Below, in pieces: positions 24,234 to 36,675 of a stretch of 64,000 bases of DNA. The DNA lies in contig NZ_CP018047.1 of assembly GCF_002009175.1 (NCBI RefSeq), forward strand, positions 4,030,001 through 4,094,000. Reading direction: 5' to 3'. The translations under genes were made by a program, and so were the position numbers. Within the stretch, counting starts at the first letter, position 1. Every line of letters starts with the position of its first letter. Below the pieces are notes generated by a model, which saw only the letters and a program-made list of their open reading frames with translations, was not told the origin of the DNA and did no database searches. The stretch is from Streptomyces niveus. GTDB taxonomy: Bacteria > Actinomycetota > Actinomycetes > Streptomycetales > Streptomycetaceae.

Positions 24234-24306
24234 GCACTCGTAGCTTAACGGATAGAGCATCTGACTACGGATCAGAAGGTTGCAGGTTCGAATCCTGCCG
24301 AGTGCA
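24234..24306 (+). tRNA. tRNA-Arg(ACG), integration site of the AICE
   Basis: 73 bases: acceptor GCACTCG (24234-24240)/CGAGTGC (24299-24305), D-arm with AACGGAT, anticodon stem TCTGA/TCAGA around CTACGGA (anticodon ACG at 24267-24269), T-arm GCAGG-TTCGAAT-CCTGC. The segment from the first base of the anticodon loop onward is duplicated at 36586, showing that an element inserted here while keeping the tRNA intact. Confidence 0.95.
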
Positions 24307-24354
24307 CAGCAGGCCAGAGGCCCCGGACGAAGAGTCCGGGGCCTCTGGCGTTGA
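24265..24354 (+). repeat. attL: direct repeat covering the tRNA-Arg 3' half and its terminator
   Basis: 90 bp nearly identical to 36586-36675 (two mismatches, at 24331 and 24347; the first 66 bp are identical). The repeat starts at the first base of the anticodon loop and includes the hairpin AGAGGCCCCGGAC (24316-24328)/GTCCGGGGCCTCT (24334-24346) that terminates the tRNA. Att sites of this size and position are typical of tyrosine recombinases of AICEs. Confidence 0.92.
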
Positions 24355-24394: not shown

Positions 24395-25621
24395 TCAGCC
24401 GGTACCGCCCATGGCGTCCGACAGCTTGCCGATCGCGGCGCGTACCTGTTCCTCGCTCGCCTCGGCGTAGACCTCCATCGTCATGGCGATCTGTGAGTGC
24501 CGGAGGATGCGTTGAGCGATCTTCGGGTGCACCTTGAGCGCGACCAGGAGCGAGCTGCACGTGTGCCGGGTGTTCCGCAGCGGGATGACGCGAAGGCCGG
24601 CCCGGCGGGCCCGCAGGGCGAACATGCGCGTCAGGTTCCCCGGCTCGATCGGGGTCCCGTACTTGGTGGTGAAGACCAGGCCGTGAGTGTCCTGCCAGAG
24701 TTCACCCACGGCCTTCCGGTCGCCGGTCTGCTGGGCGCGGCGCATGCGCAGGGCTTTCAGGCACAGTTCGGGCAGCGGCAGGAAGTCGTCCGATTCCTCC
24801 GTCTTTGTCTCGCGGTGGAGAATCTGCCGCCCGGCTCGCTGGATCTGATGATCCACGTACAGCTCACCCGTCTCGAAGTCGATGGACTTCCACGTCAGCC
24901 CCAGCACCTCGCCCCGGCGGAGCCCGAGGGTCAGCACCAGGACCCAGGCCGCGAAGAGGTGGTCATCGCGGGCAGCGGCGTCCGTGAGGAAATGGCCGGC
25001 ATCGGCCACCGACCACGGCCTGATCCGGCGACGACGCGGCTTGGACACCTTGACGAGGGAGGCGACGTTCTTGCTGATCTCCTCTTCGCCGACCGCGTGG
25101 GTCAGGGCGGCGCGGAGCGCGTCGCGAGAGCCCTGGATCACCCGGCGGGACGGGTACGACTCGCAGCACCCGCCGACCGCACAGCACTTCCGGCGGTCGG
25201 GAGCCCTGTCGGCGTCCTTGCCCTGGGCGCAGCACTGGCAGATGGTCGCCAGCTTGGTCAGCCACTCGCGCACGTCCCGCACGGTGAGCTTGTCCAGCCG
25301 CTTGGTGCCGAGGTGAGGAGCGATGTAGAGCCGTACGTATCCCTCGTACGAGACGTATGACAGCGGGGCGAGATTGGGCTTCACGATCGAGTCGAGCCAG
25401 TACGTCAGGAAGACCGCGACCGTGCGGTGCCGCGTGGCGACCGGTCCCTTCTTGGCCTCGCTGTGGAGCTTGATCCACTTGTCGTGCACCTCGTCGCGGG
25501 TCTTGCCGTAGACGTACTTCCGAGCGCGCTTGCCGTCCGGTTTGGTGACCCAGGCGTAGGCCGCGTGACCGTTCTTGTAGGGGTAGATGGAGCCTTCCCC
25601 GTTGCTTCGCTTGCCGCTCAT
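24395..25621 (-). CDS. int: site-specific tyrosine recombinase (integrase) of the AICE
   Basis: 408 residues. An SAM-like core-binding N-terminal half contains an unusual Cys-rich insertion (CQCCAQ ... CCAVGGCC, about residues 128-153, seven Cys). The catalytic domain shows GLRRGEVLGL (Arg about 235), the box II variant LRNTRHTCSSLL, HSQIAMTMEVYAE with the nucleophilic Tyr about residue 385. It joins attP and attB in tRNA-Arg. The start ATG overlaps the xis stop (ATGA) and the gene reads toward attL, so excision would separate it from outside transcription. The Cys cluster may bind zinc, as in several actinomycete integrases. Confidence 0.95.
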   Translation of the reverse strand: MSGKRSNGEGSIYPYKNGHAAYAWVTKPDGKRARKYVYGKTRDEVHDKWIKLHSEAKKGPVATRHRTVAVFLTYWLDSIVKPNLAPLSYVSYEGYVRLYIAPHLGTKRLDKLTVRDVREWLTKLATICQCCAQGKDADRAPDRRKCCAVGGCCESYPSRRVIQGSRDALRAALTHAVGEEEISKNVASLVKVSKPRRRRIRPWSVADAGHFLTDAAARDDHLFAAWVLVLTLGLRRGEVLGLTWKSIDFETGELYVDHQIQRAGRQILHRETKTEESDDFLPLPELCLKALRMRRAQQTGDRKAVGELWQDTHGLVFTTKYGTPIEPGNLTRMFALRARRAGLRVIPLRNTRHTCSSLLVALKVHPKIAQRILRHSQIAMTMEVYAEASEEQVRAAIGKLSDAMGGTG

Positions 25622-25824
25622 GCTGCCTGCCCTTCGGCGTCGGTAGCCATGCGCTGGACGTACTCATCGACCCAGGCCGGGAGGATGCGACGGTTGCGGC
25701 CGACCTTGACCGAACGGATCTCGCCGGTGAGTACCAGCATCTTGGTCTTGGACAGGCCGAAGCCGAGCATCGCGGCGACCTCGGCGGTCGTGTGCCACTT
25801 CGGTGTGATGGCGGTCGTGATCAC
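25618..25824 (-). CDS. xis: excisionase-like helix-turn-helix protein
   Basis: 68 residues from GTG 25824, preceded by AAAGGAGA. HTTAEVAAMLGFGLSKTKMLVLTGEIRSVKVGRNRRILPAWVDEYV is a MerR/excisionase-type winged helix-turn-helix. In AICEs Xis bends att DNA and directs Int toward excision. It overlaps the rep stop (GTGA) and the int start (ATGA), so rep-xis-int are translationally coupled and expression of excision is tied to replication. Confidence 0.9.
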   Translation of the reverse strand: MITTAITPKWHTTAEVAAMLGFGLSKTKMLVLTGEIRSVKVGRNRRILPAWVDEYVQRMATDAEGQAA

Positions 25825-27173
25825 GGGGACTCTTCTCCTTTCGTTCGGTCTGCGTGGAGTTGGTCGGTGAGCCAGGCTTCGCCGCTGGTGAGTCCGGTTC
25901 CGGCGTAGTCCCAGCGGGAGAGGACGAGGGTGGTGGGCGTGGGGGCGTGGGTGTCTTCGCCGCGTGTGAGGGCGGTTTGGAGTCGTTGCCATTGGGCGCG
26001 GGCCTGGCGGAGGTTGGAGAGGGTGGTGGAGTAGCGGCGGGTTTTGGTGGAGAAGTGGCCCCGGAAGCCGAGCATGTGGGCCCAGGCGCGCAGGCGGAGG
26101 TGTGCGAGGTCGTGCCGTGCGCCGAGGTCCCAGCAGGTGCGGACCAGGCGGCGGGCGTGGTCGGTGAGGTCGGTGTGGGCGAGTTCGGCCAGGAGCCGGA
26201 TGCGGTGGTCGAGGGTGCCGGTCGCGGTCTCGGTGCCCTTGGTGGCGTACTTGGCGATGTAGCCGGCCACGGCGCGGTCGGTGAGTTCGGTGCCGCCGGC
26301 GAAGTCGGCGGAGCGGATGACGCGTACGTCGAGCTGGCGGCCGAAGGTGAACCGGTGCGCGCGACCGTCGAGGGTCGGGCCCGTCACGCTGGCGGCTCGC
26401 GTGGCGGATTCAATGGCGTCGGTGAGGAGTTCGGGGGTGGCCCATGCCGCGGGTTGGGTGTTGCCGCCGTCGTGGCCGTCGAGTCGGATGACGGCGTGGA
26501 AGTGGACGGCGCCGCGTCGTTGGTACTCGGCGACCTTGGCGAAGGAGACGCGGGCGTGCTGGCGGAAGGTGCGTTGGGTGAGTCCGGCGCGCTTGGCGAT
26601 CTCGCGGCGGAGGTGGATGGAGAAGCGCCGCCACAGAGCCCCGGCGTGGGCGTTCCAGAGCACCGCGGCTTGGTAGTCGTAGGAGTCGGGGTTAAGCGGT
26701 GTTCCCAGGGCGGGATCGTCGGCGGGGTGGGTAGTGCCGCATCGGCAGGCGGGGCGGCCGGTGGGGCGGTTGTGGACGGGGCCGAAGCTGGGTGCGGTGA
26801 GGGTCGCGAAGACGCGGGGGTGTGTGGAGACCTGTTCGCCGGTGCCCTTGCCGCCGCGCAGTCCGGCGGTGATCAGGTGGTAGGTGTCGCGGCGGTAGGT
26901 CTCGGCGCAGGTGGCGCAGCGGGTGACGCGGCGGTTGTTGCACCGTACGAGGAGCTGTCCGGCCGGGAGGGCGGTCGAGTCGAGGTGGTGCAGTACGGGG
27001 CCGATCTCGCCGGTCCGGGTGTCGAGGTGGTGTTCCGTGCGGTGTCCGGTCAGGCGGATGGGACGGGTACAGCCGCCGAGGGTGGAGAGCTGGCGCAGGA
27101 GTCCGGGCAGTTGCCCGTACGTGGCCAGGCGACGCAGTTCGGTGCGTACGGGTGCGGTATCGCGCGTGATGAT
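25821..27173 (-). CDS. RepSA-like replication initiator with a predicted ATC start
   Basis: 450 residues if translation begins at ATC 27173. The frame is open from upstream of 27173 to the stop, but its first ATG/GTG/TTG after the ribosome-binding site is GTG 26663, which would remove about 170 conserved-looking residues. AAAGGAG (27181-27187) lies 7 bases before the ATC. The N-terminal part carries Cys pairs (CNNRRVTRCATCAE, CRCG); the centre has YQRRGAVHFHAVIRLDG, a rolling-circle HUH-like H-F-H motif. RepSA proteins nick the double-strand origin and start rolling-circle replication. Confidence 0.85.
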   Translation of the reverse strand: MITRDTAPVRTELRRLATYGQLPGLLRQLSTLGGCTRPIRLTGHRTEHHLDTRTGEIGPVLHHLDSTALPAGQLLVRCNNRRVTRCATCAETYRRDTYHLITAGLRGGKGTGEQVSTHPRVFATLTAPSFGPVHNRPTGRPACRCGTTHPADDPALGTPLNPDSYDYQAAVLWNAHAGALWRRFSIHLRREIAKRAGLTQRTFRQHARVSFAKVAEYQRRGAVHFHAVIRLDGHDGGNTQPAAWATPELLTDAIESATRAASVTGPTLDGRAHRFTFGRQLDVRVIRSADFAGGTELTDRAVAGYIAKYATKGTETATGTLDHRIRLLAELAHTDLTDHARRLVRTCWDLGARHDLAHLRLRAWAHMLGFRGHFSTKTRRYSTTLSNLRQARAQWQRLQTALTRGEDTHAPTPTTLVLSRWDYAGTGLTSGEAWLTDQLHADRTKGEESP

Positions 27174-27272
27174 GGTGCTTCTCCTTTGTCTGACATCTGT
27201 GTCCGGGTGGAGGGGAAGGCCCTGCCGGGGCGGCGGATGCTTGGCGGTATCGAGGCCGCCCCGGCAGGTTGC

Positions 27273-28389: not shown

Positions 28390-29766
28390 TCAGCCGGTGA
28401 CGGGACTCGGCTTGGTCAGCGGCGCGGCCTTCTCGACCGGGCGCGTGGGCACGAAGGGCCGGAAGGAGGCGAGCGCGGGCAGCTCGGGTACGAGTGCGGC
28501 GGTCTCGTGGCAGACGGCGGAGGCGTCGCCGAGGGAGAGGTACGGAGTGCGGATACGGGTCCAGCCGCCGGAAGTGTCACCGGCGATGGCGAGGCCGGGA
28601 CGCTCGGGAGCGATGGAGCAGGCGGCGCCGACCGCTTCCGGAGCGATGTCGCCGAGCGCCATCTTGGCCGAGGATTCGTCGTTGACGCGGTGGCAGACAC
28701 GGCCTGAGAGCTGAGCGCGGAGCATCGTCGCGCCTTTGCCGAGTTCGGCCCCGAAGCGCTGCCCGCAGATCTCCAGGAAGATGCCGGCGGCGCGGCCGAG
28801 CTGGGCGAGGCGGATGAGCTGGGTGACCATCTGGTCCCGGCGTTCCTCGTCCTTCTTGGTCGCTATGAGGAAGAGTTCGGCCACCTCGTCCACGAACAGC
28901 ACGACTGGTACGGGGCGTTCGTGCTCAGGCAGGCCCCAGACGTCCGAGGTGATGTCCTCGTCGGGGGTGCCGGAAGCGATGCCCTGACGGGCTTTGATCA
29001 GGTCGTATCGGTCTTCCATCTCGGCGACGAGCGCGGGCAGCAGTTCGGCCGCCTCGTCGGGGTTGGTGGCCAGTGCGGACAGGCGAGGCGCGAAGGGTGC
29101 GAGTTCGACGCCGCGTTTGCAGTCGATGCCGACCAGGGCGACGGGTTGGCGGGCGAGACCGCTGATCAGGTTGCGCAGGTACATGGACTTGCCCGACAGC
29201 GTTGCCCCGAGGGTGAGTTGGTGCGGGACGGCCAGGTAATCCCGTACGAAGGGCTGTGCGTTCTCCCGCAGGGCCACCGGCACCCGCAGCACATCCGGAC
29301 GCGTGGCTCTCGGCATCCGGACACGTGCCAGCACATCGAAGCCGACCAAGCGCAACTCGACCACACCCGGCTTCACCGAAGTGACGTGAACGGTGTGGAC
29401 TCCCCAGGCATGACGCAGACGCTCTGAGGACGCGGCGACGTCTGCCGGTTCCTGGCCGGGAGCGAGGCGGAGCCTGAACCGCAGCCCGGTCGAGGTGGGC
29501 CGGATCAGTCCACGCCGGGGTGGTACGGGGCGGATCTCGCGCCGGGTGGCAGCTCGTACAGCCAGGGCGCGAAGACGGGACGGAGGGACGGTCAGGCCAC
29601 AGGCTTCCATGACCGAGACGTACGAGGTGAGCAGTCGCACGACGGCCAGCGGCAGGCCGATGACGCACCAGAACAGGACCGGGCAGTGAGTCCGGGCCCA
29701 GGCGGCCCCGACGCCGAGTGCGACGAGGGGACCGCCCAGTACCGCGAGTGTCAGCAGGTCGGACAC
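28390..29766 (-). CDS. FtsK/SpoIIIE-type DNA translocase for conjugation (TraB/TraSA-like)
   Basis: 458 residues from GTG 29766, one base after the upstream stop, with GGAG in range. Two N-terminal membrane helices (about 5-25 and 29-49) are followed by a motor domain with Walker A GATLSGKS (187-194), GIDCKRGVEL, Walker B VVLFVDEVAEL (288-298), and GIFLEICGQRFG. AICE translocases bind clt repeats and pump double-stranded DNA into the recipient. Walker A has T-L-S where related pumps often have T-G-S/A, which should not abolish ATP binding. Confidence 0.92.
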   Translation of the reverse strand: MSDLLTLAVLGGPLVALGVGAAWARTHCPVLFWCVIGLPLAVVRLLTSYVSVMEACGLTVPPSRLRALAVRAATRREIRPVPPRRGLIRPTSTGLRFRLRLAPGQEPADVAASSERLRHAWGVHTVHVTSVKPGVVELRLVGFDVLARVRMPRATRPDVLRVPVALRENAQPFVRDYLAVPHQLTLGATLSGKSMYLRNLISGLARQPVALVGIDCKRGVELAPFAPRLSALATNPDEAAELLPALVAEMEDRYDLIKARQGIASGTPDEDITSDVWGLPEHERPVPVVLFVDEVAELFLIATKKDEERRDQMVTQLIRLAQLGRAAGIFLEICGQRFGAELGKGATMLRAQLSGRVCHRVNDESSAKMALGDIAPEAVGAACSIAPERPGLAIAGDTSGGWTRIRTPYLSLGDASAVCHETAALVPELPALASFRPFVPTRPVEKAAPLTKPSPVTG

Positions 29767-29767
29767 G

Positions 29768-30124
29768 TCAGGCTCCCGCGCCGACCGTGGCGGGGATGGC
29801 ACCGGCGGTCACGGCGGCGGCCCGGTAGGCGATGCCGTGACGCTGCTGCCCGTTGAACACCGACTCCCAGGGCCGGGCGATCAGCCCCGGCAGCGAGACA
29901 GGCGCCCCCAGGACCAGGCCGTCAGTCACGCCGCTCTCAGGAATGGTGACGTGGATGAGGGACGACTCGCCCTCGTCGATGTACACGACGCCGACCTTCA
30001 TCAACGCCTCACCGCTGATCGCGTCCTTGGCGATCTCGCCGGTCTGCCGGTCGCGCACCTTCGGCTCAGGCGTCTCGGTCAGCAGGATCGTCGCGGTGGA
30101 AGTCTCAACTCGGATGGAACGCAT
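29768..30124 (-). CDS. SCO3933-family AICE regulatory protein
   Basis: 118 residues from ATG 30124, preceded by AAGGAG at a spacing of 9. Beta-rich sequence: VETSTATILLTETPEPKVRD, GEIAKDAISGEALMKVGVVY, LIHVTIPESGV, then LVLGAPVSLPGL and RPWESVFNG. I recall this as a conserved small protein placed before the transfer ATPase in Streptomyces AICEs and labelled a regulatory protein; its mechanism is not known. It is the first gene of the tra-spd operon, just downstream of operator-like sites at 30166 and 30239. Confidence 0.8.
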   Translation of the reverse strand: MRSIRVETSTATILLTETPEPKVRDRQTGEIAKDAISGEALMKVGVVYIDEGESSLIHVTIPESGVTDGLVLGAPVSLPGLIARPWESVFNGQQRHGIAYRAAAVTAGAIPATVGAGA

Positions 30125-33173: not shown

Positions 33174-35855
33174 CTAGGAGGTTTCTTCGCCATCGGCAAT
33201 GGCCCTTTGCGTGCGGGCGAGGTTGCCGAGGCGGAGTGCGGTGTCGGGGTGGTCAGGACCGAGAGCAGCTTCGGTGACCGTCAGTGCCCGCTGGTCCAGC
33301 GGCAGGGCTTCGTCGTGCCGCCCCAACGCGCCGAGTGTGACGGCGAGGTTGCCGAGGCGGAGTGCGGTGTCGGGGTGGTCAGGACCGAGAGCAGCTTCGG
33401 TGACCGTCAGTGCCCGCTGTTCCAGCGGCAGGGCTTCGTCGTGCCGCCCCAACGCGCCGAGTGTGACGGCGAGGTTGCCGAGGCGGAGTGCGGTGTCGGG
33501 GTGGTCAGGACCGAGAGCAGCTTCGGCGACCGTCAGTGCCCGCTGGTCCAGCGGCAGGGCCTCGGCCCGCCGCCCCAACGCGCCGAGTGTGACGGCGAGG
33601 TTGCCGAGGCAGGTTGCGGTGTCGGGGTGGTCAGGACCGAGAGCAGCTTCGGTGACCGTCAGTGCCCGCTGGTCCAGCGGCAGGGCCTCGGCCCGCCGCC
33701 CCAACGCGCCATGAGTCCGGGCCAGGTTGCCGAGGCGGATTGCGGTGCGGGGGTGGTCCGGACCGAGAGCAGCTTCGGTGACCGTCAGTGCCCGCTGTTC
33801 CAGCGGCAGGGCTTCATCGTGCCGCCCCAACTCGCCGAGGGTCCGGGCCAGGTTGCCGAGGCGGAGTGCGGTGTCGGGGTGGTCCGGACCGAGAGCAGCT
33901 TCGGTGACCGTCAGTGCCCGCTGTTCCAGCGGCAGGGCTTTGTCGTGCCGCCCCAACTCGCCGAGTGTTGCGGCGAGGTTGCCGAGGCGGATTGCGGTGC
34001 GGGGGTGGTCCGGACCGAGAGCAGCTTCGGTGACCGTCAGTGCCCGCTGTTCCAGCGGCAGGGCTTCATCGTGCCGCCCCAACTCGCCGAGGGTCCGGGC
34101 CAGGTTGCCGAGGCGGAGTGCGGTGTCGGGGTGGTCCGGACCGAGAGCAGCTTCGGTGACCGTCAGTGCCCGCTGTTCCAGCGGCAGGGCTTTGTCGTGC
34201 CGCCCCAACTCGCCGAGTGTTGCGGCGAGGTTGCCGAGGCGGAGTGCGGTGCGGGGGTGGTCCGGACCGAGAGCAGCTTCGATGACCGTCAGTGCCCGCT
34301 GTTCCAGCGGCAGGGCTTCATCGTGCCGCCCCAACTCGCCGAGGGTCCGGGCCAGGTTGCCGAGGCGGATTGCGGTGTCGGGGTGGTCAGGACCGAGAGT
34401 AGCTTCGGTGACCGTCAGCGCCCGCTGTTCCAGCGGCAGGGCTTGTCTTGCCTGTCCCCGCGAGCGCAGGAAGGTGCCTGTGATCCCGAAGAGTTGTGCC
34501 AGTTCACTGTCAGGGGGGTGGGCTGAGTGCCTGTCTGCGATGGCCAGGACGTGCGGTAGAAGTTCCTGCCAATACGGCCAGCTTCCGACTTCGTGAGGAT
34601 CTTCGCGCTGGGCTGCCCGCAGAAGAACAGTCAGAGCGATGTCGCTTGCATGCGGGAGAGGGCGCGGCTTTGAGCGCCTCCAGAGCGGCAGCATGCGGCG
34701 CTGTTTTTCAAGTGAGGGGGTGGGTGGTGTGGTGGCGCGTAGGACGGCTTGCAGGAGGCGATGAACGGAGATCGTGTTATCAGTAAGGGTGATCATGCTG
34801 TAGGCGGCGAGGAGTCCCAGGGCTTGGTCGATGTCCTGGCGGCTGGGGAGCGCGGTGTCCAGGACACTGCGCGGCAGCGGAGTGGGAGCGAGGTAGGCCA
34901 AGATGCGGAGCAGCGGGACCGCGTTGGGGTCGGTGTTCTGCAAGGTCGCGAAGGTCACGGACCAGAGGCGGGCGATGGTGCGCTGGTGGGGGTCTCCGGG
35001 TGGGGTGGTGGCCAGAAGGGTGGCGGGGTCTTCTCGGAGCCTGCCGAGGTAGTCCTGGGGACTGGTACGGGTCTGAGCCAGGTATGCGCCAGCCTGTTGC
35101 AGCCCTAGTGGAAGGTGGCCGAGTTCGGCAGCCAGGTCTCGGAAATGCTGGGTGTCGGCGTCGGTGTGACGGCCGGTGAGGTCGCGTAGAACCGTCAGGG
35201 ATGCCTGGGGGTGCAGGGTGTCGAGGGTCAGCACGGTGCCGATGCCGCGATTCCGGAGATCGCGACGGGTGGAGATGAGCACCTGCCCTGTGGAGAGGCG
35301 GCCCAGAAGGGGCTGCAATGGGGTGGGGTCTTCGACGTTGTCCAGCACCACCAGCCAATCGGAGCGGCCCTGCAACCACGAAACGGCCCAGCCTGCGGCT
35401 TCGTCCAGCGGCATCGCCACATGAACCGGGTTCAGCGCCACCGCCAGCTCTGCCAGCCCAGCAGTGACTTCCTCCGGTGACTCGGCCGGTATCCACCACA
35501 CCGGTCCCCGCCCGGATGCAAGATGCCGACGGGCATGGTGCAGGACGAGGGTGCTCTTGCCCACGCCGCCCATGCCGTTGACGCTCTGCGCCACGATCCC
35601 CGTACCCGTCGAGGGGAGATCTGCCAGCGCTCTCAGCGCGTCATTCCGGCCCTCGAACACCGCGCTGTCCAAGTGCGGCAGATTGTGCAAGCCCCCCAGT
35701 GCGTCTTGCGTCAGGGCCGGTTTCAGTGCGTCGGAGGGCAGTACGAGTGTGCGTTGCTCGATCCGCGTACCGTCACCAGTGGACAGCACGCCGGAATTGC
35801 CGTTCACCGCCCCCGCCCGCTCGCCGCCGGCAGTAGGGCCACCGGGCAGAGTCAT
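33174..35855 (-). CDS. NB-ARC / tetratricopeptide STAND ATPase
   Basis: 893 residues. The N-terminus carries a short G/N/S-rich motif (GNSGVLSTGDGT, 19-30); the NB-ARC module has P-loop GMGGVGKS (94-101), Walker B LVVLDNV (about 168-174), a STRRDL sensor and HLPLGLQQAGAYL; a winged-helix/helical region follows; then ten 42-residue TPR units of the form ALPLEQRALTVTEAALGPDH (about 470-890). STAND proteins are signal-triggered oligomerising ATPases, several of which are anti-phage sensors. No classic effector domain is visible at either end. It overlaps the upstream membrane-protein gene by 4 bp. Confidence 0.9.
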   Translation of the reverse strand: MTLPGGPTAGGERAGAVNGNSGVLSTGDGTRIEQRTLVLPSDALKPALTQDALGGLHNLPHLDSAVFEGRNDALRALADLPSTGTGIVAQSVNGMGGVGKSTLVLHHARRHLASGRGPVWWIPAESPEEVTAGLAELAVALNPVHVAMPLDEAAGWAVSWLQGRSDWLVVLDNVEDPTPLQPLLGRLSTGQVLISTRRDLRNRGIGTVLTLDTLHPQASLTVLRDLTGRHTDADTQHFRDLAAELGHLPLGLQQAGAYLAQTRTSPQDYLGRLREDPATLLATTPPGDPHQRTIARLWSVTFATLQNTDPNAVPLLRILAYLAPTPLPRSVLDTALPSRQDIDQALGLLAAYSMITLTDNTISVHRLLQAVLRATTPPTPSLEKQRRMLPLWRRSKPRPLPHASDIALTVLLRAAQREDPHEVGSWPYWQELLPHVLAIADRHSAHPPDSELAQLFGITGTFLRSRGQARQALPLEQRALTVTEATLGPDHPDTAIRLGNLARTLGELGRHDEALPLEQRALTVIEAALGPDHPRTALRLGNLAATLGELGRHDKALPLEQRALTVTEAALGPDHPDTALRLGNLARTLGELGRHDEALPLEQRALTVTEAALGPDHPRTAIRLGNLAATLGELGRHDKALPLEQRALTVTEAALGPDHPDTALRLGNLARTLGELGRHDEALPLEQRALTVTEAALGPDHPRTAIRLGNLARTHGALGRRAEALPLDQRALTVTEAALGPDHPDTATCLGNLAVTLGALGRRAEALPLDQRALTVAEAALGPDHPDTALRLGNLAVTLGALGRHDEALPLEQRALTVTEAALGPDHPDTALRLGNLAVTLGALGRHDEALPLDQRALTVTEAALGPDHPDTALRLGNLARTQRAIADGEETS
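33190..34460 (-). repeat. ten near-identical 126-bp coding repeats (TPR units)
   Basis: The C-terminal part of the STAND gene is ten tandem 126-bp units encoding 42 residues each. Units alternate in pairs (D-T-A/R-T-A, E-L-G-R-H-D-E/K), and several neighbours are almost identical at the DNA level, which indicates recent duplication or gene conversion. Unit number may vary between strains and assemblies may collapse here. Confidence 0.9.
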
Positions 35856-36178
35856 CGCTGGACCGTGCCCCCGTCCCCGGTCACGATCACGCCCGAGTTG
35901 TCACCGGTCGCCACAGCGCGCTCCCCCGATGCGGTGGTCCGCTGACCCGCAGCAGGGGACGGAGGCGGAGAAGGCGCCGAGCCCAGCATCGAGCCCGCCG
36001 CCGCACCCAACAGGCCCGCGATGACCGCACCAGCACCCGCACCCGTCGCAATGCGCTCCGGTCGATCCCACGGCAGCACCACATCACCCAGCCACACGCA
36101 CAAACCGAAGACCACCAAGGCCCCCACGATTACCAACAGCCACCGAGCCGTCCGAGTCACGCCACGCCTCCCCGTCAA
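35852..36178 (-). CDS. small membrane protein, partner of the STAND protein
   Basis: 108 residues. Two hydrophobic helices (WLLVIVGALVVFGLCVWLG and AGAGAGAVIAGLLGAAAGSML) precede a Pro-rich linker and the tail GERAVATGDNSGVIVTGDGG. The tail repeats the motif at the N-terminus of the STAND protein (GNSGVLSTGDG). The stop overlaps the STAND start (ATGA), so the two are co-translated. It may anchor the STAND protein at the membrane or be its effector, for example by membrane damage; both are inference. Confidence 0.75.
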   Translation of the reverse strand: MTGRRGVTRTARWLLVIVGALVVFGLCVWLGDVVLPWDRPERIATGAGAGAVIAGLLGAAAGSMLGSAPSPPPSPAAGQRTTASGERAVATGDNSGVIVTGDGGTVQR

Positions 36179-36585: not shown

Positions 36586-36675
36586 CTACGGATCAGAAGG
36601 TTGCAGGTTCGAATCCTGCCGAGTGCACAGCAGGCCAGAGGCCCCGGACGACGAGTCCGGGGCCTCTCGCGTTGA
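36586..36675 (+). repeat. attR: partial tRNA-Arg copy and terminator
   Basis: Copy of 24265-24354 with two mismatches, starting at the first base of the anticodon loop (CTACGGA) and including the hairpin 36637-36667. Bases to the left (CCGGCTAGAG) do not continue the tRNA, so this copy is a tRNA fragment and not a gene. Confidence 0.92.

Follow-up and report, generated by a model that had tools for sequence, protein, structure and literature searches.

We found that two overlapping genes of Streptomyces niveus, located on the minus strand of a stretch of 64,000 nucleotides (NZ_CP018047.1, positions 4,030,001 to 4,094,000; hereafter the window, in which all coordinates are counted), encode a small membrane protein and a STAND (signal transduction ATPase with numerous domains) protein that share a 27-residue terminal motif. 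The pair lies at one end of a pSAM2-like integrative element of 12.3 kb. We consider it likely that these genes form a two-component switch, in which a NOD-like receptor (NLR) controls a membrane effector through templating of an amyloid-type tag and thereby causes lethal clustering within the membrane. The conservation and co-variation of the shared tag in related gene pairs suggest that it works like the amyloid tags by which fungal and bacterial receptors activate cell-death proteins.

The membrane gene (35852-36160, minus strand; 102 aa from GTG at 36160, or 108 aa if TTG at 36178 is used) is joined to the STAND gene (33174-35855, minus strand; 893 aa, ATG start) by an ATGA stop/start overlap at 35852-35855, and the pair adjoins the attR repeat of the element; both features were located as the preliminary description of this DNA had claimed. 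The common terminal motif proposed there was also borne out, and proved to be longer than reported: TASGERAVATGDNSGVIVTGDGGTVQR and TAGGERAGAVNGNSGVLSTGDGTRIEQ, found at the C-terminus of the membrane protein and the N-terminus of the STAND protein, are identical at 15 of 27 residues. The effector-side copy is encoded at 35855-35935 and the NLR-side copy (residues 8-35) at 35751-35834, both on the minus strand. The local alignment of the two copies scored 75, whereas the best of 20,000 shuffles reached 61. At the DNA level the copies are identical at 47 of 81 positions, and of the 15 shared residues only 5 are encoded by the same codon. A recent duplication is thus not the source of the pair of motifs, and the likeness has been maintained at the protein level.

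For the membrane protein, GTG at 36160 is the likelier start, because it is preceded by a Shine-Dalgarno-like run (GGGGAGG), its nearest relative, P0001 with 95% identity, has 102 aa, and most of the aligned homologues shown begin at the corresponding residue. Both hydropathy and AlphaFold2 predicted a two-helix membrane hairpin (35984-36154, minus strand; helices 9-34 and 45-65 in the 108-aa numbering), followed by a disordered linker, with a mean predicted local distance difference test (pLDDT) score of 63.6. A homologue search returned 51 clusters of relatives. Among 52 aligned homologues, the C-terminal motif was the best conserved of five regions (0.86), and the Pro-rich linker that precedes it (35936-35983, minus strand) was the least conserved, with a mean column conservation of 0.52 against 0.77-0.86 elsewhere. 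The N-terminus of the hairpin was more positively charged than its loop in 49 of the 52, and therefore both hairpin ends, and hence the motif, probably face the cytoplasm. As the preliminary description had noted, no known effector domain is visible: searches of Pfam, PADLOC and NCBIfam with their curated thresholds recognized no effector family, and the Pfam matches below the cut-offs were weak (best, YadA_head, E 0.0041). A literature search that covered few subscription papers and preprints found no publication on this membrane family.

The partner is a STAND/AP-ATPase NLR, with an NTPase carrying a Walker A motif and C-terminal repeats. The NB-ARC-like NTPase (35070-35585, minus strand; GMGGVGKS including K100) matched PF00931 only below the gathering score (16.7 bits where 23.5 are required; E 0.0046); in 41 NLRs, G99 of the P-loop was invariant and G94, G97 and K100 were nearly so. 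The putative sensor is an array of tetratricopeptide repeats (TPRs) at 33219-34538 (minus strand), composed of 42-aa units with ten anchors, nine of the units being closely alike; it gave a TPR_10 match of 378.9 bits. Similarity between units was 0.88 within the window gene against 0.65-0.75 to orthologues, and units were more alike within than between genes in five of the six genes examined. The nine window units differ at 12 amino-acid-variable columns, against 3 columns with synonymous changes only. This homogenization within the gene suggests concerted evolution of the sensing surface.

The same NLR passes the NCBIfam model NF040586 for the TPR protein of the FxSxx-COOH peptide system (463.6 bits against a cut-off of 300). 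Assignment to that system was rejected, as the neighbourhood contains neither FxsB nor a convincing FxSxx peptide. The genome has a single match to radical SAM FxsB, at a distance of about 544 kb and next to a different NLR-like gene, and of the two frames in the window that end in F-x-S-x-x, neither of them convincing, one is within the FtsK gene and the other is 21 kb off. Because FxsB is so distant, the NCBIfam name has probably been over-propagated to this protein.

Homologues of the membrane protein were searched in 199, then 392 Streptomyces genomes and in 394 genomes of the family, the sets overlapping. Intact stand-alone homologues (E below 1e-40) were found in seven genomes, that of the window and G058, G280, G251, G609, G629 and G678, and in all seven a motif-bearing NLR lies directly downstream. 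To survey the motif regardless of partners, an alignment of 36 segments was used against 121 Streptomyces genomes; 21 of them contained matches, 58 in all, which were assigned manually to 32 sites. Sixteen sites, including the window, are strict effector-NLR pairs. At four more (L080, L085, L090 and L093) the adjoining large frame carries, by eye, a diverged motif-like segment, three of these frames matching the NLR profile, and at another four (L082, L083, L089 and L100) a motif-bearing partner stands in unusual geometry or in a short frame. A neighbouring NLR or other motif-like partner frame is thus present at 24 of the 32 sites. The strict pair, with the motif at the effector C-terminus and the NLR N-terminus, was found in 40 of 60 fetched regions, a proportion that is not a genome-wide rate because the regions were picked by matching and the search profile came partly from the same loci, which favours finding pairs. 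In these 40 pairs, every NLR carries one motif copy and 16 effectors carry two. Among 197 genomes across the class, the motif was matched in 6, 2 of which are outside the genus.

Some of the motif sites showed other arrangements. At L083 the effector is on the plus strand and has two motif copies, and the motif-bearing NLR frame next to it runs in the opposite direction; at L089 the order is reversed, the effector being preceded by a motif-bearing NLR frame of 1447 codons. A different P-loop family was seen by eye to carry the motif in L084 (4662-7038), L101 (4646-7004) and L123 (a minus-strand frame of 730 codons), and no effector was seen beside these frames; the gene upstream of them may be MazG, judging by its appearance.

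The two copies of the motif match each other within pairs across the motif family. In a set of 41 Streptomyces pairs (40 fetched and the window), motif similarity was 0.445 for cognate and 0.330 for non-cognate combinations, and none of 100,000 permutations gave a value as high. The true NLR ranked first for 7 effectors and was among the best five of the 41 candidates for 19. Effector-motif similarity correlated with NLR-motif similarity (Mantel r 0.63), and a partial Mantel test that controlled for similarity of the NB-ARC and effector domains still gave 0.49 (0 of 5,000 as high), although tests of this type, like the permutations, cannot take out relatedness completely. When permutation was confined within effector classes, the effect remained (0 of 20,000), and by class the p values were 5e-5 for A (20 pairs), 0.038 for B2 (11 pairs) and 0.0058 for B3 (6 pairs). 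Dereplication to 18 pairs gave 0.477 for cognate against 0.319 for non-cognate motifs. The check proposed in the preliminary description, a search for co-occurring homologues and for co-variation of the motif, came out positive for co-occurrence and, across the motif family though not in the window's own class of 4 pairs, for co-variation.

The classes were defined by sorting the 41 effectors by sequence similarity and hydropathy into a helical class A (20 members) and membrane classes B1 (4, including the window effector), B2 (11) and B3 (6). Two strong hydrophobic helices were detected in 4 of 4 B1, 6 of 6 B3 and 3 of 11 B2 members, the remaining 8 of B2 showing one; 18 of the 20 class A frames have none. 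Without the motif, B2 is weakly similar to the window class (one member at E 2.6e-5, the others above the inclusion threshold). No effector family was recognized among the 41 beyond weak matches, namely YadA_head in 5 (best E 2.1e-5) and single matches to other families at E 0.003-0.01. AlphaFold2 predicted class A as a five-helix bundle (mean pLDDT 77.2), for which structural matches were generic only. Class A effectors thus share with the window pair the motif, mostly related NLRs and the gene order, but their domain is unrelated to the window effector and has five predicted helices in place of the two-helix membrane hairpin. Between B1 and A, effector-domain similarity is 0.05 and motif similarity 0.49, the latter being 0.42 within A itself. 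In an NB-ARC tree of 31 sensors, 14 of 15 class A sensors cluster with the 4 of B1 (96/96). With unrelated domains, similar motifs and grouped sensors, one connector therefore serves unrelated effectors. Class A may correspond to the published Bell domain; L078, L116 and L119 are among the class A loci that contain unannotated five-helix effectors with the motif.

An eighth genome, G233, carries the hairpin in a different form, fused to NB-ARC-WD40 and lacking the motif (protein P0052, minus frame of L137). A protein search gave four clusters of such fused hairpin-NB-ARC-WD40 proteins, one of them being the G233 protein. All four were matched by a motif-free hairpin profile at 48-63 bits, and none was matched by the motif profile. 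In these proteins (P0052-P0056), as in the window pair, a homologous hairpin is coupled to an NB-ARC switch; they differ from it in being single polypeptides with a WD40 sensor and no motif. Since the fused relatives lack the motif, it seems to replace the covalent linkage between sensor and effector. The preliminary description had proposed that the motif is a mutual docking or co-assembly element joining the NB-ARC switch to the membrane, and that the small membrane protein is the probable effector. Both proposals are supported by the occurrence of the motif in the fetched regions, by its co-variation and by the motif-free fusion of the hairpin to NB-ARC-WD40.

The preliminary description knew of no described system with this layout, a view that was not borne out. 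Pairs of NLR and Bell-domain effector connected by bacterial amyloid signalling sequences (BASS) have been described (Dyrka et al. 2020 J Mol Biol, as cited in PMC7889193, PMC8086366, PMC12261475 and PMC9815663). According to the relevant part of PMC7889193, BASS motifs are located at NLR N-termini and effector C-termini encoded by adjacent or overlapping genes, mainly in filamentous actinobacteria and cyanobacteria. The excerpts of this literature used here list ten BASS families with motifs of about 20-40 aa, partners that are mostly small Bell domains and less often TIR or CHAT, and a BASS3 peptide that aggregates. The window pair, with its N-terminal NLR motif, C-terminal effector motif and overlapping genes in a filamentous actinobacterium, is of this described kind, an assignment made by layout. 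By eye, the core of its motif differs from that of the BASS3 example peptide in these excerpts. It looks like a BASS variant in which a two-helix membrane hairpin takes the place of the Bell domain. In the fungal HET-s/HeLo/HELL signalosomes, too, a one-copy NLR is the neighbour of an effector that carries the motif C-terminally; in HET-s the effector has two copies and the NLR has r0 (PMC8086366, in part), and a further likeness is that 16 of the 40 related effectors have the motif twice in tandem. The window effector differs from the fungal proteins, to which it has no demonstrated sequence relationship, by its single copy of the motif and by a predicted residence in the membrane before activation.

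On this basis, the switch may be pictured in four steps. The STAND protein would sense a trigger, probably derived from phage, through its TPR array. By analogy with the NB-ARC family, NTP-dependent opening and oligomerization would then cluster the N-terminal 27-residue motif. The clustered motifs could form an ordered beta, amyloid-like stack, which would recruit and template the C-terminal motif of the effector; here cognate pairing is established statistically across the motif family, and the amyloid nature is proposed by comparison with BASS and the fungal systems. Finally, the clustered hairpins would breach or depolarize the membrane, and kill or arrest the infected hyphal compartment. 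More tentatively, at slightly less than an even chance, we propose that the two-helix hairpin represents a new class of effector in the amyloid-type immune signalling of bacteria. It would reside in the membrane with a cytoplasmic tag templated by the NLR, and the signal would consist in the lateral clustering of hairpins that are there beforehand, no soluble pore former being recruited. As an exchangeable connector, the tag would have allowed related sensors to swap unrelated effectors, and fusion of sensor and effector would make it dispensable.

Several observations weigh against this picture. For class B1, to which the window belongs, cognate pairing was not significant (4 pairs, p 0.167). 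AlphaFold2 confidence for the motif was low, at a pLDDT of about 50-60 in the window membrane protein and about 35-45, below 50, in class A. No solved structure resembled the hairpin, the motif or the helical class by sequence (best E 0.15), and a Foldseek search with the hairpin gave no match. Most partners in published BASS pairs are Bell domains, from which the window effector seems to differ. The genome searches also detected L146, a truncated hairpin remnant (E 5e-11) with neither motif nor partner, and the bias of the search profile toward pairs counts here as well. The preliminary description had named two observations that would speak against it, a motif widespread in unrelated Streptomyces proteins without its partner and genes that rarely co-occur. 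With most sites partnered these objections largely fail, but at 8 of 32 sites the partner was not found or the region was not looked at (L084, L086, L088, L101, L104, L105, L106 and one not fetched); among them the NLRs L088 and L105 and the P-loop proteins L084 and L101 carry the motif, with no effector seen beside them.

The alternative that survives best, though we judge it somewhat improbable, keeps the mechanism and thus overlaps with the proposed switch: the pair would serve in nonself recognition between hyphae or in exclusion of mobile elements, and not in phage defence. Its location at the edge of an integrative element agrees with such a role, and homogenization of the TPR units recalls the repeat evolution that the consulted part of the literature reports for fungal nonself-recognition NLRs. 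It is unlikely, to a slightly greater degree, that the motif serves for ordinary heterotypic docking, such as a strand-swapped or beta-roll pairing, with the NLR constitutively bound to the membrane and no amyloid templating. The weak similarity of some effectors to the YadA head, a beta-roll, fits this alternative, and cognate co-variation would be expected of any specific interface; however, both partners bear the same motif instead of complementary surfaces, many effectors carry it twice, and such symmetry is, in the published accounts as excerpted, the signature of amyloid signalling pairs.

Much less probable is a membrane protein that is a mere anchor or inhibitor of an NLR that itself gives the output. 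In its favour, neither protein shows a catalytic effector. Against it, the fused relatives carry the hairpin N-terminal to NB-ARC-WD40, where effectors usually stand, and sensors related to that of the window are combined, under the same motif, with an effector of an entirely different kind. That the shared segment is a functionless by-product of gene fission or of low-complexity convergence is hardly credible: it is rich in Gly, Ser and Thr and the genes do overlap, but the fused relatives lack it, its residues are kept while its codons have diverged, and cognate pairs co-vary.

The host of the proposed switch is a pSAM2-like actinomycete integrative element, with attachment repeats at a tRNA gene, an integrase, RepSA and an FtsK-type ATPase. 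Its integration target is the tRNA-Arg (ACG) gene at 24234-24307 (plus strand). The attL repeat (24265-24354) overlaps this gene, and attR is at 36586-36675 (plus strand); together they form a 90-nt repeat that is 98% identical. On the minus strand are a phage-type integrase (24395-25621; PF00589 and PF14659), a pSAM2-like replication initiator of RepSA type (frame open at 25824-27272; PF20199 with 311 bits on ORF 25821-26663) and a transfer ATPase of FtsK/SpoIIIE type (28390-29802; PF01580). Genes for a GntR regulator, a NUDIX protein and a HATPase are also located between the att sites.

The window pair offers a minimal membrane effector of 102 residues together with its cognate NLR and a natural, tag-free fused form, and therefore the motif as sole link between sensor and effector is directly testable. 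The matched set of 41 pairs makes it possible to study how specific amyloid-type signalling is in bacteria, and the swapping of effectors under one motif suggests that the output of NLRs may be modular through exchange of tags.

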